Shown here one piece after another: positions 8,286 to 50,161 of a stretch of DNA of 55,558 nucleotides. Within the stretch, counting starts at the first letter, position 1. Every line of letters begins with the position of its first letter. The notes below the pieces were generated by a model. The model did not search any database. It was not told where the DNA came from and worked only from the letters and a program-made list of their open reading frames with translations. Position numbers and translations under genes: made by a program. The stretch comes from a virus, in IMG/VR virus record IMGVR_UViG_3300021492_000002, positions 1 through 55,558 of that record. One strand, given 5' to 3'.

Positions 8286-8494
8286 GATCAAGATTATCGA
8301 ACATTTCTGGTATGTGGATAAAGTTAGACCGGGAAGTTTTTGGCAGGAATATTGATGTATTTTTTGCGGAGTGGGTATCAAGAGATTATGATCGTCGTTT
8401 GGCTTTTGCTTTATGCAGTCATACGGAAGATAGTGCTGAAGGATTTAGGTATCAAGCACCAGATCTTTCACCTACCCCGAGAGGGGGTCTGTGA
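8264..8494 (+). CDS. Small protein of unknown function (76 residues)
   Basis: The start at 8264 has a good SD (GAGGTGGGAGACAT) inside the end of the preceding gene. The product is a soluble-looking 76-residue protein (MDLPEIIGSRLSNISGMWIK…) ending in a Pro/Gly tail. Its stop overlaps the next ATG as TGATG. I recognise no domain. Confidence 0.5.
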   Translation: MDLPEIIGSRLSNISGMWIKLDREVFGRNIDVFFAEWVSRDYDRRLAFALCSHTEDSAEGFRYQAPDLSPTPRGGL

Positions 8495-17352: not shown

Positions 17353-18263
17353 AAAAGATAATTTTTATAATATTAATTATGGCGGTGGTTTCCATATCAC
17401 AGATTATTAGCGTTGGTGAGAATAGAGCTATTATCAACTTTGGTTCTTATGAAGGCGCGAAACTGTTGATCTATGATGATGTCCATGAGCTGTATTGGTA
17501 TGACGGTTCTTGGAGCAGTGATCCCAATGAATTGGGAGGTTATACATCAATACGGTATCCTATGGAAATAACGGGGTTGGTACCGGGCAGGAAGTATTGT
17601 TTGAAGGTAGTTGGATTATCGGGTACTGCTTATAATGCACTTTCATCCACCTATTGTTTTAATACTCTTGTTAAACCTATCAAGAGATTTACAAGTTGGG
17701 ATAGTATTTATGTGGATATAGGTGTTTTTGATACCATAAAGGGGAATTTTATGATGTTTTTCCCTTATAATACAGAGCCACCGCATGTAAGTGGGCTTCT
17801 CTATCTAAAGAGATCTGGTGATGTTGATACGCTTATGTATTGGAATGGGATTCGTTGGGTTAAACTCATAGAGGTTGGAAGTGCAGGATTTGCCACTTTA
17901 TATGATGGTTCTGGCATCCGTGGTGGTACTTATAATGGTACGTCTGATGTGACGTGGTATATTGAGCCGAGCGCTACTATTGATACTCTCGGTGATAGTA
18001 TTTTTGTTAAGGATAATTCCATAGACAGTATAAAAATAAAAGATAAGTCAATTGCAACATCTGATATTGCACCAACGGGTAATAACGGGCAGGTATTAAC
18101 AATTGATGGTGGAAATGTTGTGTGGGGTGATGCTTCTGGTACAGCTCCAAGCGACCATGCATTTGATGTGCTTATAACTAATGAATCATTAGAGAAAGAG
18201 TGGAGAACACAGCCAGGCTTAAAGAGAGCAACGACAACAAATTTTGTTATATATAGATATTAA
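17349..18263 (+). CDS. Secreted fibre-like protein with signal peptide
   Basis: A 304-residue protein with a clear Sec signal peptide (MKK IIFIILIMAVVSIS, cleavage probably near residue 18-20). The mid-region resembles a fibronectin-like fold; the C-terminal half has the tail-fibre style 'G.nGQVLTIDGGNVVWG' (~residues 245-260), typical of fibre shafts in phage and bacterial fibre-like proteins. The last residues, ATTTNFVIYRY, are mirrored at the ends of the next two proteins. ATGA overlap with the structural gene upstream. A signal peptide on a phage fibre-type protein is odd: either it is exported to the cell surface, or the hydrophobic start serves membrane association. Confidence 0.6.
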   Translation: MKKIIFIILIMAVVSISQIISVGENRAIINFGSYEGAKLLIYDDVHELYWYDGSWSSDPNELGGYTSIRYPMEITGLVPGRKYCLKVVGLSGTAYNALSSTYCFNTLVKPIKRFTSWDSIYVDIGVFDTIKGNFMMFFPYNTEPPHVSGLLYLKRSGDVDTLMYWNGIRWVKLIEVGSAGFATLYDGSGIRGGTYNGTSDVTWYIEPSATIDTLGDSIFVKDNSIDSIKIKDKSIATSDIAPTGNNGQVLTIDGGNVVWGDASGTAPSDHAFDVLITNESLEKEWRTQPGLKRATTTNFVIYRY

Positions 18264-22213: not shown

Positions 22214-24298
22214 ATGAAGCCGCGGCTTCTTCTACTCATCAGCATTTTTATGATTATTAATGCATGTTTAGCAGGAGTGCCTAAAGTATTAATGATAAAA
22301 AGGCAGTTAGCTAGTAATGATGGATCTGTTATAAACGGAGATACGACTATTGCTATATGTATATATGACGTTGGGTGTAGTGGTGATGATTGTCCTGATG
22401 CATGTACCGGTAATCCTATAGTATGTGATACGCAGGTAGTAACTGTAAGTGGCGGCTACTTCTATTTTAAATTGGATTTATCATCAGTAGATGATTCCTA
22501 TCTATCTGATACTTTGTATCTTATGGTATCGGTAAAGAATGGTGGGTCTTATGAGGATTTATGTCCTAGGGAAACTCTTTATGCGACGCATGCATGTGCA
22601 CTGAGTTCACATATTGCAGATAAGTCATATAATAGTGATAGTTTAGGCGGGCATCCACCTGATTATTATTTGGATAATACGATTGACACATTTATTGCAT
22701 ACTGGGATTCCATAAGAAACATCCCTGAAGGTTTTGCGGATGGAGTTGATAATGAAGGAGTTAAAGGTGAAGGGAAAATATATCTAGTAGCATATTGGGA
22801 GAATGAGTCAACTTTAACTTATGATAATTCTTTATATTGGGATGCTGTAAATAATAGATTAAAAATAGGGCCGATGGAAGGTGTGATACCAAGTGGCATG
22901 TTACACATTGATGGAAATGGTGCAACAGGTGTTGACGAGATATATATTGAGAATCCAGGTGATAATATATTTATAAATTTTATAGCAGATGGAGATAAAG
23001 AAGCAGGCATTAAATTTAGTGGGAGTTTCACTCTTGCCCGGTTGGCTAGTACACATGACTTAAGACTTTTAAGGATTTATAATAGCACTTATGAACCATC
23101 ACTTTATATAAAAAATTCTAATGGATATGTAGGTATAGGCACAGATACACCATCAGCCAAGTTTGATGTAAACGGGGCTGCAGAAATAAATGGACAGCTT
23201 GATATGACAAGTCATAAAATTATAAATCTTACTGACCCTACTAATTCACAAGATGCTGCTACTAAAGCTTATGTTGATGCACAGGCAAGCAATGATGACC
23301 TTTCCGACAATGTTCTAAATGACCTTTCAGATGTGAATGTGACCCCTTCGGACGGTCAAGTTTTAAAATATAATAGCTCAAGTGGAAAATGGGAGGCTGC
23401 TGTTGACGATACAGGTCACTATGAACCCAAAGATACATTTATAGCATACTGGGATAGTATCCGCAATATACCGAACGATATAGCTGATGGTGACAATTTT
23501 GACACACTTAAAGCAAGTTGGTCTTATATAAAAGACATTCCGTCAGGGTTTGCTGATGGAGTTGACGACACGGGACATTTCGAACCAAAGGATACATTTA
23601 TCGCCTACTGGGACTCCATTAGGAACATCCCCAACGACATTGCCGATGGTGATGATATAGACACAATAAAAGCCGATTGGAATAACATTAAAAATATGCC
23701 TTCTGATTTTGCGGACGGAGTTGATGACACAGGTAAAACAATTGGTATAAAAGACACGATGATAGCTTACTGGGACTCTTTACGCAATGTGCCGTCAGAT
23801 TTAGCGAATGGCGATGATGTAGATACATTTATTGCGCACTGGGATTCAGTAAGAGGTAAACCACAACTGTATTGGATAAATTTGTATATTAAATTGGATG
23901 GAGATACTATTATTGATACAGTTTACAATCAAGATACAGTAAAATCAAAGGCAGTTGATAGTCTTAATTATAGAGTTGTTATTGCTAATCATTTGCATGG
24001 TGGTTCTAACCATTGGAAAGTGGAATCAATCGTGGCTTCGACGACAATTGATGATTCAACGACAGTTTATTTATGTGATGCTTCAGATGAAGCAATAACT
24101 CTAACTTTAACAGAACCTTCGGAAAATAAAGATAGATTATTAGTTATTAAAAAATTAGATAACAGTGCAAATAAAGTTACCATTGATGCTGGTTCGAGCA
24201 CGATTGATGGTTCGCAAACATATAACTTGAATTCACAGCATCAAAGTATTATATTAATATGTGACGGAACAAAATGGTGGATTATAGCGGATAAATAA
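22214..24298 (+). CDS. Secreted or lipoprotein-like tail-fibre protein with repeats
   Basis: A 694-residue protein. The ATG at 22214 has AAGGAG eight bases upstream; a GTG at 22205 is less likely. Its hydrophobic start (PRLLLLISIFMIINACLAG) ends in a Cys, so a lipoprotein signal is possible. The N-domain (GVPKVLMIKRQLASNDGSVINGDTTI) is of the same type as in the two preceding genes, with Cys pairs. At ~310-350 is a typical phage fibre motif (SHKIINLTDPTNSQDAATKAYVDA), then repeats of DTFIAYWDSIRNIP units (~405-555). The C-terminal ~90 residues match the phage-tail pattern '…LVIKKLD…VTID…IDGS…I.LICDGTKWWII'. A receptor-binding tip is likely. Confidence 0.65.
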   Translation: MKPRLLLLISIFMIINACLAGVPKVLMIKRQLASNDGSVINGDTTIAICIYDVGCSGDDCPDACTGNPIVCDTQVVTVSGGYFYFKLDLSSVDDSYLSDTLYLMVSVKNGGSYEDLCPRETLYATHACALSSHIADKSYNSDSLGGHPPDYYLDNTIDTFIAYWDSIRNIPEGFADGVDNEGVKGEGKIYLVAYWENESTLTYDNSLYWDAVNNRLKIGPMEGVIPSGMLHIDGNGATGVDEIYIENPGDNIFINFIADGDKEAGIKFSGSFTLARLASTHDLRLLRIYNSTYEPSLYIKNSNGYVGIGTDTPSAKFDVNGAAEINGQLDMTSHKIINLTDPTNSQDAATKAYVDAQASNDDLSDNVLNDLSDVNVTPSDGQVLKYNSSSGKWEAAVDDTGHYEPKDTFIAYWDSIRNIPNDIADGDNFDTLKASWSYIKDIPSGFADGVDDTGHFEPKDTFIAYWDSIRNIPNDIADGDDIDTIKADWNNIKNMPSDFADGVDDTGKTIGIKDTMIAYWDSLRNVPSDLANGDDVDTFIAHWDSVRGKPQLYWINLYIKLDGDTIIDTVYNQDTVKSKAVDSLNYRVVIANHLHGGSNHWKVESIVASTTIDDSTTVYLCDASDEAITLTLTEPSENKDRLLVIKKLDNSANKVTIDAGSSTIDGSQTYNLNSQHQSIILICDGTKWWIIADK
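22216..22229. repeat. Perfect 14-base GC-core palindrome at a gene start
   Basis: GAAGCCGCGGCTTC covers codons 1-5 of the fibre gene (read Lys-Pro-Arg-Leu). The identical 14-mer at 35781-35794 is read Glu-Ala-Ala-Ala-Ser in the helicase, so the DNA word is kept while the peptide is not. Confidence 0.75.
23432..23890 (+). repeat. Alternating peptide repeats encoded with different codons
   Basis: Within the fibre gene an A-B repeat of about 53-54 residues occurs: A units (DTFIAYWDSIRNIP type) start at 23432, 23591, 23753 and 23822 (the last shortened), with B units (…IKDIPSGFADGVDDTG type) between. A further A-like unit lies at 22685. A1 and A2 encode identical residues over 21 codons, yet 13 of those codons differ, all synonymously. 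Confidence 0.8.
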
Positions 24299-24300
24299 CT

Positions 24301-25686
24301 ATGAAACCGATAAACAGGACAACAACGCTAATATATAAGAAGGGGCGCAGGGTCAAGGTCGAGAAGTATATTAAGAGGATTTATTATCCTGACCACAACA
24401 ATCCTAAAGTTCTAAAGCCCATCATAACAGAACCTAAAGACGCAAAGATATATTATACTGGCTACAAACACGAAATAATTGACCACGATTTACTTATAGG
24501 GTTTTCTCCAAAATATAACGACTTGCCGTTCTTACGTTTTACTGACCCGAAGACAGAAAACACATGGGCTTTATGGATAAAGGGGTTCGGTAAAAATATA
24601 CCGAAGACAGGAATCCGCCCTAAATCAATCGGTAAATTAAAATACGGTATGCACTATGAGATTGACCCAAATGTTGAACTTAAATTTGAAATCTTAGGAC
24701 ATATGATTCGTAAGATTATTGTTGTTCACAAGCGCCCCGAATGGAATGAAATAACATTTATTATATCACGATTTGGTGGACATTTGATAACAGGCAAAAC
24801 TTTCGGCAAGTCCGAACCCTTATTAGCCTTTCGTAAAAACGATATAAAGCCATTATTTAAATTTTTGCGCCCCACAGTATATGATTCAAGCGAGCCCTTA
24901 AAATACCATAAACCTATGCTATTTCTTAATAATATACGGACAGGGGTTTGGGAATTAAAGATAAAGCTTTCGGGAAAGTGGCTTGATGAGGCGAAATATC
25001 CGATTTATATAGACCCGACACTTGAACTCCAACCAGATGCTGATGAAGGATATGATACTTTTATAGCCAATGATGGTTCTAGTGATTATCTTCTTAATTG
25101 TGGTGTTTTTATTGGGTTGCAGTTGAGGGCTGATAATTCTCGTGGTGAAGTAAAAAATATATTAATAAAATTTGACCTTAGCGATATTCCACAAAATTCA
25201 ACAATTATATCTTCTATCTTAAGTTTATATATGTATAGTAATCACGGCGATATAACAATCCGCAAATATCGAATTTTGCGAGACTGGGGTGAGGGAAACA
25301 AAAATGTAGCTGAAGCAACAGAAGGAGAAAGTTCTTGGGCGTGGTATGCCCGACCTAACGAATGGTCAATTTGGGGGGCACAGAGTATCGGTGAAGATAT
25401 AGCTGAAGCAGATGATGATGATACAACTATTTTATATTCGCAAGGTCGTAATATCTGGGTTGACTTTGATGTAACTGCCTCTACACAGCAAATTATAAAT
25501 ACGGGAATAAATTATGGTTGGAAACTTGGTGGTGTTAATGCACCATTGCTAAAATATGTGCGCTTTGAAGCATCAGATTGGGATATGCATCCCAAACTTA
25601 CTATAGAATATGATGATATATACTGGCATATTGGCAGAGTAGGTTGGGAAGGTCAAGGAAGACCGTTTAAGTGGATTTTTGATTGA
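24301..25686 (+). CDS. DNRLRE-domain protein (carbohydrate-binding-like)
   Basis: A 461-residue protein without a signal peptide. Residues ~250-450 fit the DNRLRE/CBM96-like beta-sandwich domain: 'YDTFIAN…', 'VKNILIKFDLSDIPQNSTI', 'ILSLYMYSN', 'YRILRDWGEGN', 'WVDFDVTASTQQI'. Such domains are common in bacterial extracellular proteins and often bind polysaccharide. The N-terminal half is basic (KKGRRVKVEKYIKRIYYP) and unrecognised. The gene starts two bases after the fibre gene. Its base and codon style differs from neighbours (more C-ending and CCG/CGC codons, no GC-core palindromes), suggesting more recent acquisition. Likely a tail-associated glycan-binding component. Confidence 0.7.
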   Translation: MKPINRTTTLIYKKGRRVKVEKYIKRIYYPDHNNPKVLKPIITEPKDAKIYYTGYKHEIIDHDLLIGFSPKYNDLPFLRFTDPKTENTWALWIKGFGKNIPKTGIRPKSIGKLKYGMHYEIDPNVELKFEILGHMIRKIIVVHKRPEWNEITFIISRFGGHLITGKTFGKSEPLLAFRKNDIKPLFKFLRPTVYDSSEPLKYHKPMLFLNNIRTGVWELKIKLSGKWLDEAKYPIYIDPTLELQPDADEGYDTFIANDGSSDYLLNCGVFIGLQLRADNSRGEVKNILIKFDLSDIPQNSTIISSILSLYMYSNHGDITIRKYRILRDWGEGNKNVAEATEGESSWAWYARPNEWSIWGAQSIGEDIAEADDDDTTILYSQGRNIWVDFDVTASTQQIINTGINYGWKLGGVNAPLLKYVRFEASDWDMHPKLTIEYDDIYWHIGRVGWEGQGRPFKWIFD

Positions 25687-25717: not shown

Positions 25718-26191
25718 ATGAAGTTACAAAGTCTTAATATCATATTAGCGTTTATTGTTTTGTTGTTTTTTACCGACTTATCTGCAAAAACATTAGGTTA
25801 TGGTTTGATCACAGGATGTGATGTTTACCATACATATGGTGGAACTATCGGGTTCTTTACATATGGAGGACTAAAGTACTGGGGTATATCATTATCTTAT
25901 CATCAATCATGGGATGGCGATTACTGTGGTGCTAATATTACTGTGAATAATTCATATCGGTTCGAGTTCTCAAAACATATTGGTGTAAGCATAGGCAGTT
26001 TGACTGGTGTTGGTATTTTATTTACTGACAGAGTGCTGAGTGAGCATATTGAAAGTTTCATTGGGGTATTTTATAAGTGGAAGCGGGGCTTCCTTGAACT
26101 TGCATTACATACAATGGTTGATCCTTACCATAAGAAGACGTCGTTTAATAACTGTTATACAATACAAATAAAGTATTTTAGGATATTTTAG
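25718..26191 (+). CDS. Small secreted barrel-like outer-membrane protein
   Basis: A 157-residue protein with a signal peptide (MKLQSLNIILAFIVLLFFTDLSA, cleavage after SA). The mature part alternates polar and aromatic residues in strands (LKYWGISLSYHQSW, IESFIGVFYKWKRGFLELALHT) and ends in an aromatic strand, IQIKYFRIF. A final aromatic residue is the usual signal for BAM-dependent outer-membrane barrels. Its size suits an 8-stranded barrel. It precedes a holin-like gene and resembles in style the protein at 26737, so a role in lysis, envelope change or superinfection exclusion is possible. The barrel is inferred from pattern only. Confidence 0.5.
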   Translation: MKLQSLNIILAFIVLLFFTDLSAKTLGYGLITGCDVYHTYGGTIGFFTYGGLKYWGISLSYHQSWDGDYCGANITVNNSYRFEFSKHIGVSIGSLTGVGILFTDRVLSEHIESFIGVFYKWKRGFLELALHTMVDPYHKKTSFNNCYTIQIKYFRIF

Positions 26192-26441: not shown

Positions 26442-26737
26442 ATATCATGGAGGTTTTTGGCAATATGGATTCGCCAATATTGGGCGCGCTTCAGCTCGTA
26501 CTTAGATTCCTTGCTGGTAAGTTCGTTAAACCGTGGTACGACGGGCAGCATACCTATGCTAAGTATCTTATAACAGATGAAGCGCAGGCCCTTTATGATG
26601 GTCTATTGCTTCTTAGAGAAAAAACAACTGATGAGGAGAAGAAGAAGACCATAGAGCAGATAATTGAGCTTATACGGAGTGTGTTTGAAGCCGCCGAGTT
26701 TGGCGTGGACTTTAGGGGTGTTGAAATTGGCGACTGA
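26438..26737 (+). CDS. Helical protein after the holin, unknown function
   Basis: A 99-residue protein that is mainly helical (…ALQLVLRFLAGKFVKPWYDG… and KTTDEEKKKTIEQIIELIRSVFEAAEF). The first helix is hydrophobic enough to lie on a membrane but is not a clear transmembrane span. ATG overlaps the holin stop, and its own stop overlaps the next start (TGATG), so it is made together with the holin-like protein. It might be a holin partner or antiholin; there is no direct evidence. Confidence 0.5.
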   Translation: MNIMEVFGNMDSPILGALQLVLRFLAGKFVKPWYDGQHTYAKYLITDEAQALYDGLLLLREKTTDEEKKKTIEQIIELIRSVFEAAEFGVDFRGVEIGD

Positions 26738-27225
26738 TGAGAAAGGTTATTGTAACATTATGTGTGTTATTTAGTTTGATTGCTGCACAGGATTTTTCCT
26801 TCCATTATTCTCCATGGGAGGCTCAGCAGGCTAGAGCTGAATTAGATTACCGATTATGGAGAGGAGGCATTGTTTATGCTAAATTTGGTATGTGGAACCA
26901 TTTTGGTGATGAGAAGGGCGCCGGTCTATATTTCGGTCTACCTGTGAAAGTTTCATTATATCAGAATATTCTTAAGGCACAGGCTTCAACTAATTACGGT
27001 TTTGGATACTTGTATCATGGTGATAAGCTTAACAAATATGCAAACGGACAGGTGAATTTTGTTCTCCATATCAAGATTGGAAATACCTACTGTCTTACAT
27101 GTTGCAAGGAGTATTCTAAGGATGTGTACCTTGATATCGGGATAGGTTATACGCTCTTTAGATATAAATATGATGATTATAAGGATGTCATTTCTATATT
27201 TTTCGGTGTATCATTTATAAATTGA
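26737..27225 (+). CDS. Small secreted barrel-like outer-membrane protein
   Basis: A 162-residue protein with a signal peptide (MRKVIVTLCVLFSLIAAQ). The mature part has repeated amphipathic strands (AELDYRLWRGGIVYAKFGMW, AGLYFGLPVKVSLY, INTYG-like turns, VYLDIGIGYTLFRYKY) and ends VISIFFGVSFIN, a strand-like C-terminus. There is a Cys pair (CLTCC). It is of the same general type as the protein at 25718, and the two flank the holin-like gene. Phage-encoded outer-membrane barrels may block receptors or help disrupt the outer membrane; which applies here cannot be told. Confidence 0.5.
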   Translation: MRKVIVTLCVLFSLIAAQDFSFHYSPWEAQQARAELDYRLWRGGIVYAKFGMWNHFGDEKGAGLYFGLPVKVSLYQNILKAQASTNYGFGYLYHGDKLNKYANGQVNFVLHIKIGNTYCLTCCKEYSKDVYLDIGIGYTLFRYKYDDYKDVISIFFGVSFIN

Positions 27226-33562: not shown

Positions 33563-33722
33563 GAAGACAAAGCCAATAGCTATTGGTATTGAAGAAATGC
33601 CATTGTACAGATCCTACCTTGATCATTACTTTATGCAGTTTTACCAGTTGATGGAATCCTTCAAGAAGTGGTTCTGTAATCTATCGGAATATCTTGGGAA
33701 GGTTGATTGGTACTATCATTAA
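33549..33722 (+). CDS. Very small protein ending at a shared stop
   Basis: A 57-residue reading frame starts with ATG at 33549, overlapping the end of the previous gene by 14 bases, and runs to TAA at 33720-33722. It encodes MEENKKTKPIAIGIEEMPLY… followed by an aromatic, possibly helical stretch (YLDHYFMQFYQLMESFKKWF). It exactly fills the space up to the opposite-strand sigma-like gene, and the two stop codons overlap in the palindrome TTAA, which argues for both genes being real. Function unknown. Confidence 0.55.
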   Translation: MEENKKTKPIAIGIEEMPLYRSYLDHYFMQFYQLMESFKKWFCNLSEYLGKVDWYYH

Positions 33723-34426
33723 GCCGCCGGCTCATCAATAATAATTGTCCCGTCAATAATCCATTCTTCAAGCTTATGAGCTTCATCAGTACTCAAACCG
33801 TAACCAATGCAGAACCCATGTTTACCCATTAATAGTGTTGATCTAATGAAGGCAAAAACGGTTGGATCGAGGTTCTCTTCCATTATGCTAAGAATCTTAC
33901 TTCCTACATCTGGTGGAGATAATTCTCTATGCGTATCAATGTCCTCATCTATTGGGATAAATCCATCCTTGGCAAGTTTGACAGCTTTACTTAGTGCTGA
34001 TTCATCATCATCGAGATCAATATTAGCCTCTGTTGTACCTGGTAATGCGATAAAATATCCACTTCTTGTTATAGCCCGTCTGATAGCCTTTCTGACATTG
34101 TAAAATACGACAGAGCTGAATGTACTCCCCTGTTCACATCTCCATGTTCTGATAGCGTTATGTAATCCTATGATAGCGATGTCATACATCTCTTGGCGCT
34201 CAAATGGTGCCCAGTGAAAGTAGTTTGTGATGATATCAACAATTAGCTTATGTGAACGCCTTATAAGCTCTTGGAAAATGCTATCATAAAGAGGTTGCGT
34301 ATCGTCGATTTTAGTAATAAGCGCTAGTTCATCAGTTTCAAGCCAGCGGAAAGCAGTTGCATATTCCTCGAACGATGCATAATCATATGTGGTGCGAGTT
34401 GTTGTTTGGTTTTCAATTTCTATCAT
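33719..34426 (-). CDS. Sigma-70-like RNA polymerase sigma factor
   Basis: A 235-residue protein. Residues ~60-118 resemble sigma region 2: 'HKLIVDIITNYFHWAPFERQEMYDIAIIGLHNAIRTW' then 'EQGSTFSSVVFYNVRKAIRRAI', to be compared with 'DL.Q.G..GL..A…FD…G..FSTYA..wIr.aI.RAI'. The C-terminal part (~180-235: SILSIMEENLDPTVFAFIRSTLLMG…YGLSTDEAHKLEEWI) could be a diverged region 4. It likely redirects host RNA polymerase to phage genes, as late sigma factors do. It has no SD and is coupled by ATGA to the gene upstream of it on its strand. Divergence leaves some doubt. Confidence 0.7.
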   Translation of the reverse strand: MIEIENQTTTRTTYDYASFEEYATAFRWLETDELALITKIDDTQPLYDSIFQELIRRSHKLIVDIITNYFHWAPFERQEMYDIAIIGLHNAIRTWRCEQGSTFSSVVFYNVRKAIRRAITRSGYFIALPGTTEANIDLDDDESALSKAVKLAKDGFIPIDEDIDTHRELSPPDVGSKILSIMEENLDPTVFAFIRSTLLMGKHGFCIGYGLSTDEAHKLEEWIIDGTIIIDEPAA

Positions 34427-36832: not shown

Positions 36833-37498
36833 TTATAGATGGATAAATATTCCTGGCGCTATTATAATGGTGTCCTCATCGGTAACAAGGTCGAATACAA
36901 CACCACTGTAATCTTCAAATATTCTAACCTCTTCAACATTGCGCACCCAGCCATCGAAGTTTGTTCCTCTCCACTTGTGTAGAGCTGGCGGCTTCCTATT
37001 ATCAGATACAATAGGTTTTAATGTTATTGCAGGTAATCTATCGCCGCTACGCAGTTCCTTGGCATCAATGTATGTCCATCCGCCCTGTCTGATAACACCT
37101 ACTCCAACATCAGCGGCGATTATAAATGTGTTAACCCTTAATGGATCTTCATCTATTGGTTGTTCCATACGTACAGCGACGGCTGCTCCCTTATAGTGAC
37201 GTATGGTCGCGCGCTTAACATTCTTCTGACAGAGAGCAAGTTTGCGTTGGTGAAGCGCGCCGGTTCTATCGTATGTTACAACCGTTGTGGCTATATCACT
37301 ATAACGCCTTAGCATTTCATTCCGCTCGAGATAGTCAAGGTTCGGATAAAGGACCTCCCATGCAACAAGACCTTTTGTTTGTTGTATGTAATTCCATGCA
37401 TCTCTAAGTGTAGGAGCTGACATGTATTCAGTCACATGTAGGTAACCACCTAATGAAAGGATATAGGCATCAATTATTTTAAAGGATCTGACGAACAT
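36833..37498 (-). CDS. Hint-domain-like protein lacking intein catalytic ends
   Basis: A 221-residue protein. The C-terminal half resembles the Hint fold of inteins and hedgehog proteins: 'GVIRQGGWTYIDAKELRSGDRLPA' (~135-158) is like 'v.T..G…I.eL..GD.v', and the end 'GVVFDLVTDEDTIIIAPGIFIHL' (~199-221) is like intein blocks F and G '.VyD..V…HnF…GI..HN'. The penultimate His is kept, but the final Asn is Leu and no Cys or Ser is seen at the expected first position, so splicing is not expected. The N-terminal ~115 residues are unknown. The ATG at 37498 has GGGAGGTGAAA; a GTG at 37504 is less likely. Confidence 0.5.
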   Translation of the reverse strand: MFVRSFKIIDAYILSLGGYLHVTEYMSAPTLRDAWNYIQQTKGLVAWEVLYPNLDYLERNEMLRRYSDIATTVVTYDRTGALHQRKLALCQKNVKRATIRHYKGAAVAVRMEQPIDEDPLRVNTFIIAADVGVGVIRQGGWTYIDAKELRSGDRLPAITLKPIVSDNRKPPALHKWRGTNFDGWVRNVEEVRIFEDYSGVVFDLVTDEDTIIIAPGIFIHL

Positions 37499-37509
37499 TT
37501 TCACCTCCC

Positions 37510-40594: not shown

Positions 40595-40622
40595 TTGACA
40601 AAGGACTAACACTCAATATATT
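40595..40622 (+). promoter_or_regulatory. Rightward half of a face-to-face promoter pair
   Basis: TTGACA (40595-40600), a 16-base spacer and TATATT (40617-40622) would start RNA near 40629 and drive the Cas4-like nuclease and the secreted-protein genes. Its boxes are mirror-symmetric to those of the leftward promoter about position 40626.5. Confidence 0.7.
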
Positions 40623-40678: not shown

Positions 40679-41608
40679 ATGTTAATGGAATTAATCGATC
40701 GCTTCTTAGTTGAAGAAGCTGTTAAAGATGTTTATAAGCGTGATCCTAATCGTGTGCGTCCTACTGAAGCATCAGTGAAGATTGATGGTATCGTATATGG
40801 TTCATGTTTAAGATCTTCATGGTATTCATTGAAGCATTTTAAGCCGCGCCCTCCTGATGCACGTGCCCTTCGTGTAATGGAGGTTGGTAAAGCTCTAGAA
40901 CAATTAGAAGCGGAGCGATGTAGGCGGATGGGTATTCTGGTTGAGAAACCATTGGATTTTAAGGTACCGAATCCACTAGAACCAAATCAAATTATAAGCG
41001 GCCGTAAGGATTTTTATGTGCATGTTGATGGGCATGATTATGTAGTAGAATACAAAACTGGCTCTGGGTACCCCTTTGAGAAGAATGTTATTAAGGGGGG
41101 TAAGTCAACAATTGATCATGTACTACAGATATCACTATACCTTCATTTCGGAGACATAAAGCGCGGGCTTCTTGTATACCTTGATAGAGGCTATTCGCAC
41201 TATAAGGAATTTCTTATCTATGTTGATAATGATGGTCACATATATCAAAACAATAAGGGCATCGGTATCAAGGTCGATGATATTCTAATGCGTTATAAAG
41301 AGCTTTATCAGTATGTTACTAAAGGTATATTACCACCGAGGGATTATATTCCCTTCTATACTTATGATATGGCAACAGCTGTTAAAGAAGGACTTCAACA
41401 TGGACGGATCTCGAAATCAATGGTTACTAAATGGGAGAAGGGGAAGGCGCCGCTTATGGATTGGCACTGTCGTTATTGCCCGTTCATTCAGTATTGCATC
41501 TTCGATGTAAAGAATCAGGAGGAAGCGGATGAGAAAATTACTGGTTATAATATCGATAATTTTATTTTTGAATATTATCGTTCCTTCCTTAGCCAGCGCA
41601 AGCGTTAG
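40679..41608 (+). CDS. Cas4-like PD-(D/E)XK nuclease with iron-sulfur cluster
   Basis: A 309-residue RecB/Cas4-type nuclease. Visible: early Cys43 (YGSCLRSSWY), catalytic core 'ISGRKDFYVHVDGHDYVVEYKTGSG' with D111, E124 and K126, a following Q160-x3-Y164-type helix (HVLQISLYLHF), and C-terminal C264-x2-C267-x5-C273 (WHCRYCPFIQYC). Together these define a 4Fe-4S Cas4/AddB-like exonuclease, used by many phages in recombination and replication end processing. The ATG at 40679 follows GAGAGGGGAGCAC; a TTG at 40652 lies in the promoter and is rejected. First gene after the face-to-face promoters; the next gene starts inside its end. Confidence 0.87.
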   Translation: MLMELIDRFLVEEAVKDVYKRDPNRVRPTEASVKIDGIVYGSCLRSSWYSLKHFKPRPPDARALRVMEVGKALEQLEAERCRRMGILVEKPLDFKVPNPLEPNQIISGRKDFYVHVDGHDYVVEYKTGSGYPFEKNVIKGGKSTIDHVLQISLYLHFGDIKRGLLVYLDRGYSHYKEFLIYVDNDGHIYQNNKGIGIKVDDILMRYKELYQYVTKGILPPRDYIPFYTYDMATAVKEGLQHGRISKSMVTKWEKGKAPLMDWHCRYCPFIQYCIFDVKNQEEADEKITGYNIDNFIFEYYRSFLSQRKR

Positions 41609-42908
41609 CTGTTATCTTAATAGAATATGGTACAATACAGCTGACGGACACCATTACATGGAATTGTTCATTGTTACGTTTGACGACACACCCTTTTGCA
41701 TTTATGATACTCTACATAATCTATATTATGATCCTACAAACTTTAAATGGCAATCAGATCGATATGATTGTCGCTTTACAGCAGCATTATATGAAATAAA
41801 GATGGTTCCGGGAACCCGGTATACGATTGCAATTGTTGACACAGACTCATTACATACAATATTAAGTGATTGCATTTTTGATACCTTTGGTGGTGTTTTG
41901 GATACATCACCTGTTTACCATGTTGCTGATTCACATCTAGTTAGATATTCCTTAAAGGTGGGGCGTTCGATATTTGTGTATGACTCAGCGCAGGTTAATA
42001 ACATTGGAACGTGCCCTGTACCTTTTGATACTGTTTTTGCCAAAGCATTTATGATTAAGAATGCTGATGGGACATGTACAATGCTCAGGCCTAGCAGAAG
42101 CAGTAAGTTCAGCTCTGTTTTTGCGGGCTTATATTATGATGGCTGGATATGTGGCCGCTGCTATAAATTTATTGTACCTTATGATAGTGTTGAATTTCTC
42201 GGTGTTGGATTCTCCGCAAGAACACGTACAGATCCACCGCCTGATGCTATTGAAGCTGAGCAGATGAAAATTGTAATAAATAATGCGGATACGATTTATA
42301 TTTCCATACCAGGCCCAGCCTTCATGCATAATTTTTTTGATTCAACAATCATGTTACATGAGGATGATACAATTGAGATATGCTTTTGCACACCACCAAA
42401 TAGTAATGCTGACTGTCATTATCGAGATGCACAAGTACTATTATTTGGGAATATTTATGGTTATGCATCAGTTATAAGGACTGAAATGTTTTTCATTGCA
42501 TCAGGGATACCTGATTTGGAGTTCAATCCCATGATGTTTACTACAGATCCAATGGGTGCGGGGCCTCTTGTAATAACAATGCGCTGGATTAAATCATACT
42601 ATGATGCAATGGGAGATTATCCAACTTATAATAGTTTGTACAATATCATAAGCTTTTTATATAGGTTATCACCAGAGGAATTCGATCTAAAAATAATGTT
42701 CTCAAGACATTTGCTTACCAATAATACGAAACAGCTTCATACATATGGGATGATTCCATCAACTATTATGTATGGTTCATTAGATGATGATTATGATCTT
42801 TATGTATCTGGTGATGAATATATAAGACCATATGTCCCCGTTATCATAGCGCCAAAGGTTAATGCTACTAGGCCACTGATGGCAACATTATTTATAGGAT
42901 TCCGATGA
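41529..42908 (+). CDS. Secreted protein with signal peptide, Cys-rich family
   Basis: A 459-residue protein with a Sec signal peptide (MRKLLVIISIILFLNIIVPSLASA). A perfect SD (AGGAGGAAGCGG) and the signal-peptide codons lie within the last 80 bases of the nuclease gene. The mature protein is beta-rich with many Cys, consistent with disulfides after export. Residues ~155-190 (NNIGTCPVPFDTVFAKAFMIKNADGTC) recur in related form in the genes at 43246 and 44587. No known domain or enzyme motif. Probably on the cell surface, in the periplasm or in an extracellular structure. Confidence 0.6.
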   Translation: MRKLLVIISIILFLNIIVPSLASASVSCYLNRIWYNTADGHHYMELFIVTFDDTPFCIYDTLHNLYYDPTNFKWQSDRYDCRFTAALYEIKMVPGTRYTIAIVDTDSLHTILSDCIFDTFGGVLDTSPVYHVADSHLVRYSLKVGRSIFVYDSAQVNNIGTCPVPFDTVFAKAFMIKNADGTCTMLRPSRSSKFSSVFAGLYYDGWICGRCYKFIVPYDSVEFLGVGFSARTRTDPPPDAIEAEQMKIVINNADTIYISIPGPAFMHNFFDSTIMLHEDDTIEICFCTPPNSNADCHYRDAQVLLFGNIYGYASVIRTEMFFIASGIPDLEFNPMMFTTDPMGAGPLVITMRWIKSYYDAMGDYPTYNSLYNIISFLYRLSPEEFDLKIMFSRHLLTNNTKQLHTYGMIPSTIMYGSLDDDYDLYVSGDEYIRPYVPVIIAPKVNATRPLMATLFIGFR

Positions 42909-43312
42909 AAAAGATTGTTTTTATAATATTGTTAATATGTATAATAGCTTCACCTGCTGATATTAAGGTTTTTATTGATGCTATTGTTGATACCACATAT
43001 GGTGTTAATGGCTATAAATGGTGGGTCTTTTATAAGTTTGGTGACAGCACATATTTTGTAACCGATTGGGCACAGCCAATAAAGCAGTCAAAGATAAGTA
43101 ATGACACTCTTACCATATTTATCCCATTCTATGTATTCTTTGAAAATGATAGTTGCATAAGGCAGGTTGCTCTCTATCCTGTTCCTGGTACTGGTATGAG
43201 TTTGCATGTAAGAATAAGGGAGAAGACAGGAGTCGTAAAGAATTCATGTCTAAATATAGACTTTACATATTCATCCTACTTGCGTGGTGGTGTTTGGTAT
43301 CTCAAGCCATAG
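42905..43312 (+). CDS. Small secreted protein with signal peptide
   Basis: A 135-residue protein with the start MKKIVFIILLICIIASPADIK, a short signal peptide. The mature ~115 residues are beta-rich with two Cys (ENDSCIRQVA; KNSCLNIDF) that may pair. ATGA overlap with the gene before; the next gene starts 67 bases before its end. Unknown function. Confidence 0.55.
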   Translation: MKKIVFIILLICIIASPADIKVFIDAIVDTTYGVNGYKWWVFYKFGDSTYFVTDWAQPIKQSKISNDTLTIFIPFYVFFENDSCIRQVALYPVPGTGMSLHVRIREKTGVVKNSCLNIDFTYSSYLRGGVWYLKP

Positions 43313-44238
43313 GGCAGACTGTTATATCGGACAGTGCGGAGAATTGGTATAAGTATCGTGTTTCCAGTATTTATTGTTACGGAGGCTGGGAGTCGCCGGC
43401 CTCTGTTATAAACTACATTGGTCTGTGCAGCATACCATTTGATTCAATCTTTGCCTATGTATATATGGTATCAACAGATTCAGGTTGTTTTCCTATTTTG
43501 ATATTAAAAAGGCAGCGTGTTTGGTTGGGGTTTCGCTACATAGATGGGAAGGAGAACTGTAATTACAATCTATGTGTGAAGGGGGAGGATAGCTTATTAA
43601 TTGAAGTTATCTCAAGGGTTAATGATACTGTATGTCTTAACGACACCTGCATGGTAACCCCATTTGTGTATCACTATGTTAAAACTGATACGGCGGAAAC
43701 GCTTATTAATATTTGTACTAATGGTTCTAATGATGTGGTTATCAATGTTTATGGTGATGCTGTTTATTATGAAGCCCGCACCTATCCATTTTTTAATGTC
43801 TTAAGAGATCACGCTCTCTTTCCTATAACATTGTCATGGATTGAGTGGGTTAGCAAGTTGTTACATAGTGATTCATTAAACGTACGCAGTTTTTTAGATA
43901 TTTACTTTACATCAGAGGTTATGGGATATCCTGTTTTACCAGAGGAATATAAGTATGCGCTGGTTTATACTGATAGTATAAATTATAGTTATGGACCCCC
44001 ACGTTGTCCTGTCACTGATGAATGTTATATCGATTATGGTTATTTGTTTAGATGGGGTAAGAATAGTTATCTAAGTGGCTGGCTTACATACTTCAATCCT
44101 TATGAACATTCTGGTATCAAAGACACAACAATCAAGGAAGGGGTTTATTGGTTCACAACAAGAAGGAAGATAAATGGCACGAATACATTTTATAAAGGTT
44201 ACATTCATCCTACTATTCCTTGGTCTTTCTATCATTAA
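43246..44238 (+). CDS. Secreted protein with signal peptide, Cys-rich family
   Basis: A 330-residue protein. I take the ATG at 43246 (MSKYRLYIFILLAWWCLVSQAIGQ) because it gives a clean signal peptide; the frame is open further upstream to 43153 but that start would bury the signal. The mature N-terminus contains 'NYIGLCSIPFDSIFAYVYMVSTDSGC' (~50-75), closely like a segment in the 41529 protein, then more beta sequence with Cys pairs. Its signal peptide is encoded in the end of the previous gene. Function unknown; exported. Confidence 0.55.
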   Translation: MSKYRLYIFILLAWWCLVSQAIGQTVISDSAENWYKYRVSSIYCYGGWESPASVINYIGLCSIPFDSIFAYVYMVSTDSGCFPILILKRQRVWLGFRYIDGKENCNYNLCVKGEDSLLIEVISRVNDTVCLNDTCMVTPFVYHYVKTDTAETLINICTNGSNDVVINVYGDAVYYEARTYPFFNVLRDHALFPITLSWIEWVSKLLHSDSLNVRSFLDIYFTSEVMGYPVLPEEYKYALVYTDSINYSYGPPRCPVTDECYIDYGYLFRWGKNSYLSGWLTYFNPYEHSGIKDTTIKEGVYWFTTRRKINGTNTFYKGYIHPTIPWSFYH

Positions 44239-44668
44239 TGCTCAGTGTGTTCAGCAGGTTAATGCTGTTTCCAGAAGCGACGGCTTCCCTGATATATTAC
44301 TGTACATCAATGGTCTTTATGACCGTTCATATGCAATAAAAGTCGAATATGTCATGTGTGATTCTATTGATACCCTTATCTATCGCGGTAGTGGGGCTTG
44401 TTTATTAATCGGTAGTGAGCACATATTTATCTTTAATGATATTAATATCGCACATATAAGAGTCCCTGTTTTGCCTGGGCATGACTATGATTTATATATA
44501 TCTGCATTAGGTATAACAACATCGGGAAGTGATACAACAATAAGATATCACTTTTATTATGAGATAGAAAATGTGGAGGAATGGATATGCAAAGAATTAT
44601 TAATAGATACAGTAGTTGTCGATACATTGGATACATTTCCATCCTTTCCATCCTCATCAGTGTATTGA
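44174..44668 (+). CDS. Small secreted protein with signal peptide
   Basis: A 164-residue protein with signal peptide MARIHFIKVTFILLFLGLSIINA and mature start QCVQQVNAVSR. SD AAGGAAGATAA. Beta-rich, with Cys residues and an acidic, Thr-rich end (LLIDTVVVDTLDTFPSFPSS). The first 65 bases overlap the previous gene and the last 82 contain the start of the next. Resembles the small 42905 protein in plan, so small and large secreted genes alternate. Function unknown. Confidence 0.55.
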   Translation: MARIHFIKVTFILLFLGLSIINAQCVQQVNAVSRSDGFPDILLYINGLYDRSYAIKVEYVMCDSIDTLIYRGSGACLLIGSEHIFIFNDINIAHIRVPVLPGHDYDLYISALGITTSGSDTTIRYHFYYEIENVEEWICKELLIDTVVVDTLDTFPSFPSSSVY

Positions 44669-47127
44669 TCAATGTTTCATTAGCTGATCCTATAGTATGT
44701 GGGACTGAGTCTAATAGTAAGTATGAGGATGTTGATAGTATGGATTTGATTTACATCATTAAAGGAGATACAAATCATGCACAGATAGGACGGTGCGAAG
44801 ATTCATATTTTAAGGCTATTTATTCAAAGGCTTTTTATCTTGTAACAGATACAGGTTGTATCCCCGTTCAGGGTGCTGGAGGTTCGCCTCTTGAATGTGA
44901 TAGTTGTAAATTTTTCTCTACATTCTGGAATATGTTCATCCATACCAATGGCGAGACATTATATGCGGAGCAACCACACTTCAGGGAAAGTGATGATGGG
45001 GACACATTTATCTTTTATGATGCTTATTCTTCTCTATCACCAGGTAACAGGATGTTATGGATCAACGTCGAAGATATTTCACCTGATACGATAAGGATTA
45101 GTACTGACCAAAATAATAAGATCCTTAGTATTGGTAAATTTAAAGAATTGTTATTATGTGATCCATCTCTTGGGGCAACTAATTTAAGGGTTGATACGAT
45201 TTTGTCATGTAATGATAATCTAGTAGTAAGCCCACCAGTTCTTTTTATGGATTCTACAACGCTTGTAAATGGCGATATACATTGGAATGAGTTGGATTCC
45301 ATCATCCAGTATCGTATCGATGAACCCCTTGATAGTATCGGTATCAGATATCTATGGATGTCTGGTGGAGAGCAATGTACACTTGACTTGATGATAAAAA
45401 ATACTCCTATATTATTCCAGTTCCTAAATAGCTATATTAATGTTGTTGTTGGTGATAGTGAAATGACGCCTAAAGATTTTGCAGAAGATTTTTGTCCTAT
45501 TGAATGCACTAGTGCTAACCATTATAATGCTTGCCTTGCGGATACTGACACATTGATAATTTTTAGGATTGATCCGGGAGCTGCTGGCACAATAGCTGTT
45601 GATCAGATTATTGTGCACTATGAAGCCGACACACTATTTTCACATGATACAACGGATGATACACTAATCCTTAATGATGGTACAACAGAGCATATCTATG
45701 TGCCTGTACCAACAGCAGGTAATGTTGGTTACAATTTGGTTGTTGGTGATACATGTAATTGGGGTAACCCCATAGGATTACATTCAGGTGGTGGCAGTAC
45801 AGACACATTAATATTTAGAGTAGGGCGCGGGCTTCGTGTTTATAATGATAAATTAGAATTATATTTAGATACAGAAAACCCTGGCTTAGAATTTAACGCT
45901 ACTGAAGATGAGTGTACGCTTTATACGTTAAGGGTAGCTAATATTGATTCAACACACATAGCAGATAGTTCCATATCATGGGTTGATCTCAGCATTGCTG
46001 TAATGGAGAGCATAAGGACCGGTAGATTGCGGGTGTTGTGGGATCCAATGAATCAAGCACTTAGTTGTACTGATGATTTGACCGATACTGTTTCCCATGT
46101 AAGGACAGTGAGACTGATACCTCCTATACAGGCTCAATCAATAGGTGATACAGGGATATGTATCTATTTGGATTCTGTTGCTATAGGCCAAACATGTGGA
46201 TGTAATGCTATCGAGCCTCTTTACAAAGAGGGAAGAGCTATAGGATTACATGCTGATACATCACTCTTTACTGTTAGTGGTGGTTATCTAACGTTGAAAC
46301 ATCCTTTCATCTCTAAAGTATTTTTCAATTATAAATCAACATCCTGTGTTGATACAGGTGATAGCAGTCCTAAAGGATCTAAAATGTATGATTATTTGGT
46401 TATTAATGTTGAGGAACCATTAGTTGCAGTAGGCAGCACCCCTGTTGATACCCTTGATACAACCAAGATACAACTTTCACTAGCATATGATGAAGATCTA
46501 TTCACCATTGACACAACAGCACCTGATACATGCCAGCTTACCATAAGGGATAGGAGCATAACATGGAGATACATTGACACAAGTGTTGCTGATACCATAT
46601 GTAACCGTTGCGGGGGCGGGGCTTCACTTTCGGGATGGGATACAATACAGATGTTTCCTCAGTACAGCAATTGTATTGTCCTTAATAGTACATCCTCTGA
46701 TGGTGTATTAGACGTAATGATTGATCCTGATAATGATATGGACATGCCTGTATATAGATGGCGATCTAACTATAATAGCTCTTTCCAGACGATTATTTTA
46801 CATGTAGTACAACCATTGATTGCCACAGACTCAACATTGGATACGATTAAAATATTATTCAGATATAGGAGACCGAGCATTCATGCGGACATAAAGCTTG
46901 ATTATAGGCTACTGGACAGTACACGCAGCACAATAGCTAGTGGTTCCAATATTACAATTGTTGGGTCTCCATTTCCTACAGGTCCTCCCAAAACACATAC
47001 ATATAAAATAACATGTGATGATATAAATATAACAAGATATATCCAACTTGACATAAAGATGAGGAGTAAATATGGTGCGCCGATTTATCTGGGCGACATT
47101 AGTATTATTTATAAGCGCCGCTATTAA
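44587..47127 (+). CDS. Large secreted fibre-like protein, Cys-rich family
   Basis: An 846-residue protein. The ATG at 44587 has GGAGG eight bases before; one at 44581 is too close. Signal region RYIGYISILSILISVLINVSLA, then mature ADPIVCGTESN. Near ~55-80 'AQIGRCEDSYFKAIYSKAFYLVTDTGC' repeats the family segment of the 41529 and 43246 proteins. The rest is long beta-rich sequence with many Asp-Thr pairs (DTLDTTKIQLSL, SHDTTDDTLIL), Cys pairs and fibre-style repeats such as 'GLRVYNDKLELYLDTENPG', typical of shaft domains. Likely an exported, possibly adhesive, surface protein. Confidence 0.6.
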   Translation: MQRIINRYSSCRYIGYISILSILISVLINVSLADPIVCGTESNSKYEDVDSMDLIYIIKGDTNHAQIGRCEDSYFKAIYSKAFYLVTDTGCIPVQGAGGSPLECDSCKFFSTFWNMFIHTNGETLYAEQPHFRESDDGDTFIFYDAYSSLSPGNRMLWINVEDISPDTIRISTDQNNKILSIGKFKELLLCDPSLGATNLRVDTILSCNDNLVVSPPVLFMDSTTLVNGDIHWNELDSIIQYRIDEPLDSIGIRYLWMSGGEQCTLDLMIKNTPILFQFLNSYINVVVGDSEMTPKDFAEDFCPIECTSANHYNACLADTDTLIIFRIDPGAAGTIAVDQIIVHYEADTLFSHDTTDDTLILNDGTTEHIYVPVPTAGNVGYNLVVGDTCNWGNPIGLHSGGGSTDTLIFRVGRGLRVYNDKLELYLDTENPGLEFNATEDECTLYTLRVANIDSTHIADSSISWVDLSIAVMESIRTGRLRVLWDPMNQALSCTDDLTDTVSHVRTVRLIPPIQAQSIGDTGICIYLDSVAIGQTCGCNAIEPLYKEGRAIGLHADTSLFTVSGGYLTLKHPFISKVFFNYKSTSCVDTGDSSPKGSKMYDYLVINVEEPLVAVGSTPVDTLDTTKIQLSLAYDEDLFTIDTTAPDTCQLTIRDRSITWRYIDTSVADTICNRCGGGASLSGWDTIQMFPQYSNCIVLNSTSSDGVLDVMIDPDNDMDMPVYRWRSNYNSSFQTIILHVVQPLIATDSTLDTIKILFRYRRPSIHADIKLDYRLLDSTRSTIASGSNITIVGSPFPTGPPKTHTYKITCDDINITRYIQLDIKMRSKYGAPIYLGDISIIYKRRY

Positions 47128-50100
47128 TGCTTACCCTGTTACAGCAGTTAATAGTCTTCCTGATAGCTTTACTACATCTTTAAGGATTATTGATATCGAA
47201 GGCCGGCCTATTAAGGTTTCCTCTGTTGATACCATTATTATTGAGACATTTTATGATACTATTAATACACATGACACGATTTTATTTCTTACGTCATATA
47301 CAAGTATTTTCCAGTTTATTGAGTGGATAAAATATTATAGTGGAAATTACTATGTAAGGTTGAAGCCCGGCTTCGGTAGTAAAGGGACAAGTACTGATTC
47401 AATAAGAGGGCCGTGGCCTCCAGTAATGCATGAGGTTTATCAGGGAGATACATTATACTTGTATGCCCGTATTTACTTACATATAAGGTGGGCACCATTT
47501 GAACATGCGTGGAACGATCAATTAAGTTACATACGATTATTATACATATGGAATTCAACAGCAAGCAAGTATGTCCTTCACAAGATATCTACAGTGCAAT
47601 TCGATCCAATTACTATTGGAAGGACAAACAGGCATGAGCTTTATAAAGAGGGATTGTTTTGGGGATTAAATCTACGGAAGATCTATTTTCATTGTGATAC
47701 TACCATTACGACGGCTTCAAGTCCTAAAACTATTTGTTACTTACACTACCCCGTTGACCTTGAGCTGATTCACAAGAAATTTTCGACTTATGACCGTTAT
47801 TTTATATTAAACAGTCTTAATATGTGTCGTTTTATTGCTGATAGTGATAGCTCAGCATCAAGTACATCTCCTATAAAACACATAATGAATGCGGGCTTCA
47901 TTGATGACATAGCATCAATTATCTCGCAAGACATATCATTAGATGGTATAGGCTACATCAGTGATATTAGTACGCATCAAGATACATATGTAATCGTTAT
48001 AAATGGTATAACGAAGAGAAAATATCGTTTCTCTGGTATAACAGAGAGTGATTCACTTAATCCTGTTGATTCTGTTGTTGTTTGCAAAGGTTATGGTGTT
48101 TCTGATAGCGTATTATATTTCCGTGCTCATAATGATACGGCTGTTATTGTTCTTAAGGCGCTGGCTTCCGACTCCTTTTACATCGCACTTTGTGCCATCG
48201 TCAAGGTTGACACAACCATTGATAGCTCAAGGCATTTAACTTATATTGATTACTTACCAGTCGGGATTTTTAGGATTCCACGTCGAACAAGTGGCGGCGG
48301 CTTAATAACAAGATTCATATCATGTGATCACTCGGACTTTCATATCGTGCAGCCTGGATTAATGCCAATCGTTTATGATACTCTGTCAGAAATGCCCGAT
48401 ACAATAGGCGCGCCTCTCTTCAGATGGGTTGCTCTTACAAAAGGGATTATAACACATAATGATTCAACTAAGCTAGTAGCCGTTGCCATAATTAAGGACA
48501 CAGTGCTTGTGTGGGATGTAACGAATGATACGACCATTATGTTTGGTTTACCTATTAGTGTGGATACGACATACTATTATACTGAAATAGCATCCCAACC
48601 ATATGATACATCCCTAATCGTATTCCTCCTTGATAATGATGATGAATTATTGTATATCCTTACCATCAACTATGATCTTTCATGGGATACTACAAGCATC
48701 CACCTACCATATCTCGGACAGAGAAAGTTTGTTTTTGCAACAACATGCGTTGACACAGGACCTTACTATGAGTACCCCATAGGGTGTAATTGCGACACAT
48801 CAGATAATGTATGCGATTCATTAAAATGGGATTATGAACTTATAGAACCTATAACGAAGTACTCCTATCATACTATTTATCCACTTGTGTACGATAAAAG
48901 GGACGAGTACTACACATTACTTAATTTAGATGATTCAATTGATGTCAGATTCGATTCTTTGATATATTTCTGGTCAATGACAATAAGAGATCTCATAGAA
49001 GATGCCTTTGACGGCATTCAGTGGATTGATGTTAAACCAACATTAGCTGGCAGATCCAATTTACTTCATCAACCTTTCATTTATTATAAGCTCCCGGGTT
49101 CATGGCACTGGGACATAAGAGGTGGAACATATGGACCTGCTGTTGGTTGGAATAGCAGTTCCGTTTACCATGAATTGAACTGCCGCTATGCATACCTTTT
49201 GTCACCGATACGCAATAATTTATCAGATGGGAGGCTTCGATATTGTCTAAGGGCATACCGCAACTATCCCTTACGCTTAAGATTTGTTTATACAGACCCC
49301 AGTGGTATCTCAAATCCATCAGGGGTATACCCATGTGTTTATAGAATAAGTTTAAAGGGGAAATATTTTTCTAGCACTCGTATGTCAAGTTCATGGTATT
49401 GGGCACACAGAGTCTATCCGCGTTATTCATATGACTTCCAGATAGAAGTAGATCCTGGTACCGTGCCTGAAATGATTATAGGTACATGGTTCATTGAGTT
49501 TACTATGAATTCTGCAATATATACTGACACAGTTTTTATAAGAAATCAGGTTAACCATACGGGTATTAGATACTATGTAGAAGGATTTGATTTTGCTAAT
49601 ATTGATTCTTTATTTACCACCGTTTGGTGGGAATATGGGCGTCCATCGTATGCAACTCTTCAATTCGATTTTTATTTTATTGATTATACACCACCACGAA
49701 GCGGCGCGAGTATTACTGTCCTTGGATATCTTGATAAACACCAAGCTGATACATTATTTAAAAATGATAGCATTTGTGGTAGATGTATTGACACATTGAC
49801 ACCCTATTATATCAATGTAGTACATAGAACAGCTAGTGGATTAATATCATTAACTAACGGGTTTATAGGCTTGATTATGGACAGAGAATTTGATTTCCGC
49901 AATGATGGATGGTTACAGGGGATACCTACATATTATTGGGATAGAAATGCTGAAACATGGCATCCAACTGGTGTTGATAGCCATATTATTGATCTTCACA
50001 TTTATTATGGAAGGCCGGGCTTCATCGATGCAACACCTAACTGTGTAATTACCTATAATGGTTATCGATATCGATCTCGCCATATTATTAATCCTAATGA

Positions 50101-50161
50101 ATATGGGACGTGGGGGTTAAGAAGGCGGCGCTTCTGGAATGGTATTAAGCTCCCGCCGTGA
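47072..50161 (+). CDS. Very large secreted protein with signal peptide
   Basis: A 1029-residue protein, the last of the secreted series. SD GAGGAGTAAAT; signal peptide MVRRFIWATLVLFISAAINA. The early mature region (TTSLRIIDIEGRPIKVSSVDTI…) resembles a carboxypeptidase-regulatory-like or Ig-like domain; a fibre-like segment at ~295-340 (SQDISLDGIGYISDISTHQDTYVIVING) follows, then long beta-rich sequence with few helices. No catalytic motif. Its stop lies 17 bases inside the oppositely directed RecA-like gene, with no terminator between. Probable surface or extracellular protein. Confidence 0.6.
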   Translation: MVRRFIWATLVLFISAAINAYPVTAVNSLPDSFTTSLRIIDIEGRPIKVSSVDTIIIETFYDTINTHDTILFLTSYTSIFQFIEWIKYYSGNYYVRLKPGFGSKGTSTDSIRGPWPPVMHEVYQGDTLYLYARIYLHIRWAPFEHAWNDQLSYIRLLYIWNSTASKYVLHKISTVQFDPITIGRTNRHELYKEGLFWGLNLRKIYFHCDTTITTASSPKTICYLHYPVDLELIHKKFSTYDRYFILNSLNMCRFIADSDSSASSTSPIKHIMNAGFIDDIASIISQDISLDGIGYISDISTHQDTYVIVINGITKRKYRFSGITESDSLNPVDSVVVCKGYGVSDSVLYFRAHNDTAVIVLKALASDSFYIALCAIVKVDTTIDSSRHLTYIDYLPVGIFRIPRRTSGGGLITRFISCDHSDFHIVQPGLMPIVYDTLSEMPDTIGAPLFRWVALTKGIITHNDSTKLVAVAIIKDTVLVWDVTNDTTIMFGLPISVDTTYYYTEIASQPYDTSLIVFLLDNDDELLYILTINYDLSWDTTSIHLPYLGQRKFVFATTCVDTGPYYEYPIGCNCDTSDNVCDSLKWDYELIEPITKYSYHTIYPLVYDKRDEYYTLLNLDDSIDVRFDSLIYFWSMTIRDLIEDAFDGIQWIDVKPTLAGRSNLLHQPFIYYKLPGSWHWDIRGGTYGPAVGWNSSSVYHELNCRYAYLLSPIRNNLSDGRLRYCLRAYRNYPLRLRFVYTDPSGISNPSGVYPCVYRISLKGKYFSSTRMSSSWYWAHRVYPRYSYDFQIEVDPGTVPEMIIGTWFIEFTMNSAIYTDTVFIRNQVNHTGIRYYVEGFDFANIDSLFTTVWWEYGRPSYATLQFDFYFIDYTPPRSGASITVLGYLDKHQADTLFKNDSICGRCIDTLTPYYINVVHRTASGLISLTNGFIGLIMDREFDFRNDGWLQGIPTYYWDRNAETWHPTGVDSHIIDLHIYYGRPGFIDATPNCVITYNGYRYRSRHIINPNEYGTWGLRRRRFWNGIKLPP

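Follow-up and report, generated by a model that had tools for sequence, protein, structure and literature searches.

Export signals nested in another gene are known from overlapped spanin pairs, in which the export signal of the second gene lies in a different reading frame inside the first (PMC6139136). Genes for exported or membrane proteins placed among replication genes are known from T4, where sp (encoding the periplasmic protein spackle) sits between the primase and helicase genes and imm sits beside the polymerase gene. In Bdellovibrio, mosaic adhesive trimer (MAT) fibres combine a signal peptide, a beta-rich domain of ~115-130 aa and a tail-fibre-like stalk (PMC10769870). Here we describe an operon in a 55,558-nt stretch of viral DNA, analysed whole and referred to as the window, in which a nuclease gene is followed by six genes (w1 to w6) for predicted exported proteins, five of them with a long overlap into the gene before.

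Genome context and layout of the operon

The window is a fragment, ~31% of the ~176-kb genome of a contractile-tailed phage. The polymerase gene matched two contigs in IMG/VR, G001 (175,796 bp) and G002 (147,433 bp), and the window spans the end of G001 and then its beginning, which means that the ~176-kb genome has a circular or circularly permuted form. The G001 metagenome was sampled from hot, deep-sea hydrothermal sediment of the Guaymas Basin (PMC6478937). Markers of a contractile-tailed phage include terminase, portal, sheath, PhoH and ribonucleotide reductase, together with a sub-threshold capsid match. The G001 terminase and portal genes (L011:5351-7897 and L011:11382-13802) are each broken by an intein-like (Hint) insertion, and a 223-aa ORF in the window (36833-37504, minus strand), whose C-terminus resembles a Hint/intein sequence on visual inspection, may represent a free-standing intein or the remnant of one. 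A phage-encoded TnpB-like protein (PHROG transposase) is found at L009:17808-19052 on the minus strand, and neither the window nor G001 has a tRNA.

The six reading frames and their overlaps are as the first-pass annotation had placed them (Table 1); the alternation of small and large proteins that it saw holds for the earlier genes and breaks down at the last two. The nuclease gene has further matches to phrog_1990 (Cas4-domain exonuclease, E 1.4e-10) and PF12705 (E 8.4e-05); its ORF opens at TTG 40652, and the ATG at 40679 is preceded by GGGGAG. The 3' end of w6 runs 17 nt into a convergent gene at 50145.

Table 1. Positions of the operon, its promoters and the signal-bearing tail-module genes in the window
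Feature	Position	Strand	Remarks
Sigma-70-type promoter TTGACA-16-TATATT	40595-40622	+	drives operon; in G001 at 17428-17455
Sigma-70-type promoter TTGACA-16-TATATT	40658-40631	-	for primase-helicase gene; in G001 at 17491-17464
Cas4-like / PD-(D/E)XK nuclease, operon gene 1	40679-41608	+	phrog_1706, E 1.3e-17
w1, 459 aa, predicted exported	41529-42908	+	80 nt overlap with nuclease gene; signal ~residues 1-22/25
w2, 135 aa, predicted exported	42905-43312	+	4 nt overlap with w1; in G001
w3, 330 aa, predicted exported	43246-44238	+	67 nt overlap with w2
w4, 164 aa, predicted exported	44174-44668	+	65 nt overlap with w3
w5, 846 aa, predicted exported	44587-47127	+	82 nt overlap with w4
w6, 1029 aa, predicted exported	47072-50161	+	56 nt overlap with w5
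F1, 304 aa, signal peptide, tail module	17349-18263	+	N-terminal domain predicted FN3 fold
F2, 651 aa, tail-fibre-like, signal peptide	18276-20231	+	
F3, 651 aa, F2 paralogue (66% identical), signal peptide	20243-22198	+	
F4, 694 aa, tail-fibre-like, signal peptide	22214-24298	+	phrog_1640/2710/11393 tail, E 1e-5 to 1e-6

The placement of the operon beside replication genes was borne out, as two equal promoters stand back-to-back between it and the primase-helicase gene, and both are kept in G001. Strong intergenic sigma-70-type sites in G001 lie mostly in the non-structural half, with few before late genes. Taken together with the placement of sp and imm in T4, the paired promoters and this distribution make expression early or in the middle of infection, and a role at the envelope, our best guess. 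A sigma-factor-like protein encoded at 33719-34426 on the minus strand (phrog_351, E 4e-8) is a possible late transcription factor. The earlier remark that phages rarely spend ~8.6 kb on exported proteins in the early region is weakened, since in a genome of ~176 kb the six-gene set takes up ~5%, and T4 provides a precedent.

Predicted export and nested signal peptides

Each of the six proteins passes a rule-based test for a Sec signal, as had been proposed; the rule, used in place of SignalP, calls for a positive n-region, a hydrophobic core of 9-13 residues and small residues at -3/-1. With cleavage sites placed by the rule and by inspection, the predicted signals are MRKLLVIISIILFLNIIVPSLASA for w1 (followed by SV), MKKIVFIILLICIIASPA for w2 (DI), MSKYRLYIFILLAWWCLVSQAIG for w3 (QT), MARIHFIKVTFILLFLGLSIINA for w4 (QC), MQRIINRYSSCRYIGYISILSILISVLINVSLA for w5 (DP) and MVRRFIWATLVLFISAAINA for w6 (YP). 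A recognisable Shine-Dalgarno sequence lies inside the preceding gene at five of the six starts: motifs such as AGGAGG, GGAGG and GAGGAG precede w1, w5 and w6, GAAGGA precedes w4, and a weaker, short AGGA precedes w2. The weakest ribosome-binding site of the six is that of w3, with a distant GGAG only. Beyond the signals, mature w1 to w6 are rich in cysteine (1.6-3.3%, vs 0.7% in structural-region genes) and poor in lysine plus glutamate (5.5-8.5% vs 11.8%), which by the predicted sequences is the composition of extracytoplasmic proteins. All 65 mature cysteines compared are conserved across two or three alleles, and w5 has 23 conserved cysteines; CxxC pairs are not enriched in the operon proteins beyond what their cysteine content gives. 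Because signals, composition and conserved cysteines agree, the predicted export of the six proteins is well supported.

We then compared the overlaps with the predicted signals. For w1, w3, w4, w5 and w6, overlap and signal length are 80/75, 67/72, 65/69, 82/99 and 56/60 nt, respectively. The first overlap ends 5 nt past the predicted cleavage site and the others end 4-17 nt short of theirs, so the five signals held to be dual-coding are almost wholly so, though not always over their whole length. All the overlaps, the five long ones as well as the 4-nt one, are found at the same places in G001, where that between w4 and w5 is 76 nt rather than 82, counted from the same ATG. Shine-Dalgarno-supported overlaps of at least 50 nt occur in 10 of 179 co-directional G001 gene pairs, and four of the ten belong to this operon, whose fifth long overlap (w3, 67 nt, no good motif) falls outside the ten. 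When the same script was run on ~200 kb of T4, lambda, T5 and N4, it returned a single signal gene with an overlap of at least 40 nt, at T5 22518-22871, which is laid out like an overlapped spanin pair. The tail-module proteins F1 to F4 also bear signals, and none has an overlap of at least 40 nt.

Differences between alleles indicate how the shared sequence is constrained. Counting equal-length alleles (window against G001 for four overlaps, G001 against G002 for the fifth), 16 of 21 differences within overlaps are at third positions in the frame of the upstream gene; the upstream C-terminus is thereby preserved, and the signal drifts with its hydrophobic core intact. The nesting is most simply explained by gene compaction, the tolerant partner being the signal peptide, since no other part of an exported protein would accept a second reading frame.

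Relatives, divergence and the signal-bearing tail module

No match was found for any of w1 to w6 in Pfam or PHROGs, for the four proteins searched in NCBIfam (w1, w3, w5 and w6), or for the two searched against PDB sequences (w5 and w6), and tblastn against GenBank phages returned nothing for w5, w6 or the N-terminus of F3. Scans of IMG/VR with w1, w3, w5, w6, the polymerase, the capsid, the terminase and the N-terminal domain of F2 to F4 recovered only near-identical members of the same group, and neither w6 nor the F2 to F4 domain found a relative when scanned against bacterial and archaeal genomes. Within the virus, w1 and w3 have a segment in common (E about 1e-5), of which w5 may hold a trace (E 0.02). 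The motif ICxRC, noticed after the fact, occurs in the predicted G001 proteome in w1 (ICGRC), w5 (ICNRC) and w6 (ICGRC) only. A likeness of w5 to tail-fibre linkers was seen by eye; profile comparisons gave it no support and we rejected it.

At their N-termini, w1 and F1 can be aligned (E 0.003, 26%). The model of the F1 N-terminal domain has a pLDDT of 89.9, and almost all of its best 50 hits in the PDB belong to FN3 or FN3-like domains (lowest E 0.0099, TM about 0.4-0.5), so that an FN3 fold is predicted. An FN3-like domain at the w1 N-terminus is thus a tentative prediction from the alignment to F1; AlphaFold modelling of the whole mature w1 chain reached a pLDDT of only 29.6, too low for a usable structure. 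F2, F3 and F4 share a signal and an N-terminal domain of ~120 aa and are laid out like bacterial cell-surface fibres. It is with these three, and not with the six operon proteins, that the Bdellovibrio MAT fibres share their layout. Their assignment as MAT fibres found no support at the family cut-off, NF053851 matching F2 weakly, at 15 bits (E 0.012) against a cut-off of 60.

Other predicted exported proteins are encoded elsewhere in the genome. Small signal-peptide proteins resembling outer-membrane barrels occur at 25718-26191, 26737-27225 and L010:871-1413 (minus strand), and such barrel-like proteins suggest a diderm host. One of them, B1, has a sub-threshold match to DUF2715, the barrel nature of B1 and B2 being otherwise judged by inspection. 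Lambda Lom is, like B1 and B2, an exported protein encoded directly downstream of tail genes, with no sequence match shown between them. Two convergent, related, cysteine-rich predicted exported proteins lie at L010:5141-5830 (plus strand) and L010:5831-6538 (minus strand), at 81141 and 81831 in G001; type-IX sorting tails suspected by eye at their C-termini had no match in NCBIfam and were rejected.

All six operon genes are present in G001 (175.8 kb), and G002, which is cut inside w3, carries the end of w3 and w4 to w6. Their dN/dS of 0.04-0.15 indicates purifying selection. Synonymous divergence in the operon is 0.23-0.65 (median 0.46), vs a median of 0.24 for 17 neighbouring genes (Mann-Whitney P 0.001), and that of the fibre genes F2 and F3 (0.46-0.55) is at about the operon level. 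This raised divergence may reflect cassette exchange by recombination, as in host-interaction genes; recombination can also raise synonymous divergence where there is no surface role. The full-length proteins that differ most from allele to allele, encoded at 8491-10380 (61% identity) and 24301-25686 (59%), have no signal peptides and are candidates for virion receptor-binding proteins.

Possible functions and comparison with known systems

The first-pass annotation had listed remodelling of the host surface, exclusion of competing phages, an extracellular matrix and action on neighbouring cells as possible functions. Direct evidence does not narrow this list, and surface remodelling or exclusion fits best. 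We put at about 0.5 the probability that the operon is an early or middle cassette for remodelling the envelope of a diderm host, with superinfection exclusion or adhesion the first functions to consider. In this reading, host RNA polymerase would transcribe the operon during the early or middle phase of infection. The six proteins would be made from a single mRNA with a separate start site for each, and their signals would take them through the inner membrane of a thermophilic diderm host. The proteins would then fold into beta-rich, disulphide-tied forms that work jointly, either in the periplasm or at the cell's exterior. The altered cell surface may block further adsorption or injection, or may control adhesion of the infected cell. 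Phage superinfection-exclusion proteins are usually single and small, and ~2800 mature residues in six parts count against exclusion; no sequence relation to known exclusion proteins was found in Pfam or PHROGs (all six) or in NCBIfam (w1, w3, w5 and w6).

That the six are instead virion fibre or surface components, or an external appendage that virions acquire on release, together with F1 to F4, seems unlikely, though several observations agree with it: four tail-module or tail-fibre-like proteins of the same virus bear signal peptides, the w1 N-terminus resembles that of F1, modelled as FN3 (a domain often found in structural proteins of phages), and the raised synonymous divergence is that of the fibre genes. 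However, the operon, under a sigma-70-type promoter, has replication genes as its neighbours and stands outside the late block, and the signal-less variable proteins described above are better candidates for receptor binding on the virion. Export, moreover, takes proteins out of the cytoplasm, where tailed virions are put together. A role as secreted effectors or matrix proteins, acting on neighbours or holding infected cells to one another, is favoured by the large size and the cysteine-rich, adhesin-like composition of the six and by the dense sediment habitat from which the metagenome of the relative comes. Nevertheless w1 to w6 matched no toxin, enzyme or immunity family in Pfam or PHROGs (all six) or NCBIfam (four), and no outer-membrane secretion signal was recognised, leaving this reading improbable.

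Two further alternatives concern the N-termini themselves. If the N-terminal segments were uncleaved anchors, the proteins would stay attached to the inner membrane on its periplasmic side; cleavage is inferred by rule only and the hydrophobic stretch of w5 is long, but all six have a short core and then small residues at -3/-1 (INA|Q, SPA|D and INA|Y among them), and we give this little credence. It is highly improbable that the hydrophobic N-termini arise incidentally from reading T-rich sequence out of frame, with the true starts further downstream. Hydrophobic out-of-frame stretches do occur in this A+T-rich genome, yet only 27 of 3663 out-of-frame ATGs inside G001 genes (0.7%, the operon's own counted in) pass the signal rule, five of the six starts have ribosome-binding sites, and hydrophobicity is kept despite sequence change, as in the w5 signal, which differs in sequence among three alleles.

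A more speculative reading, which we consider rather unlikely, joins the operon to the tail module: the nested-signal operon, early, and F1 to F4, late, would coat the infected cell with a MAT-like, adhesive complex of several phage proteins. If true, this would be a surface fibre system made by the virus and not by the cell. Large phages of uncultured thermophiles encode many proteins with no known relative, and in this one signals place at least ten outside the cytoplasm; w1 to w6 and F1 to F4 form a testable set for how a phage may refit the host surface. We conclude that the nested arrangement is genuine and takes an unusual form, that its proteins are orphans, and that the biology proposed for it is plausible but unproved.

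Compared with T4, the operon resembles spackle and Imm in that exported or membrane proteins are encoded among primase, helicase and polymerase genes. The T4 proteins, however, are single and small, with no sequence similarity found, whereas the operon encodes six proteins of up to 1029 aa. Spanins form one pair, a membrane i-spanin and a lipoprotein o-spanin, whereas this operon has five nested signals and far larger proteins. The traits of two-component spanins (a lipobox, an i-spanin membrane segment and small size) are not those of w1 to w6, which measure 135-1029 aa; by inspection, the classical lipobox L-[AS]-[GA]-C is absent from the six N-termini, w1 having an atypical SVSC. The arrangement is thus known from phage spanin pairs, and what is new is five nested signal peptides in one operon, a clean natural case, five together, of the signal peptide as dual-coding partner in gene overlaps.
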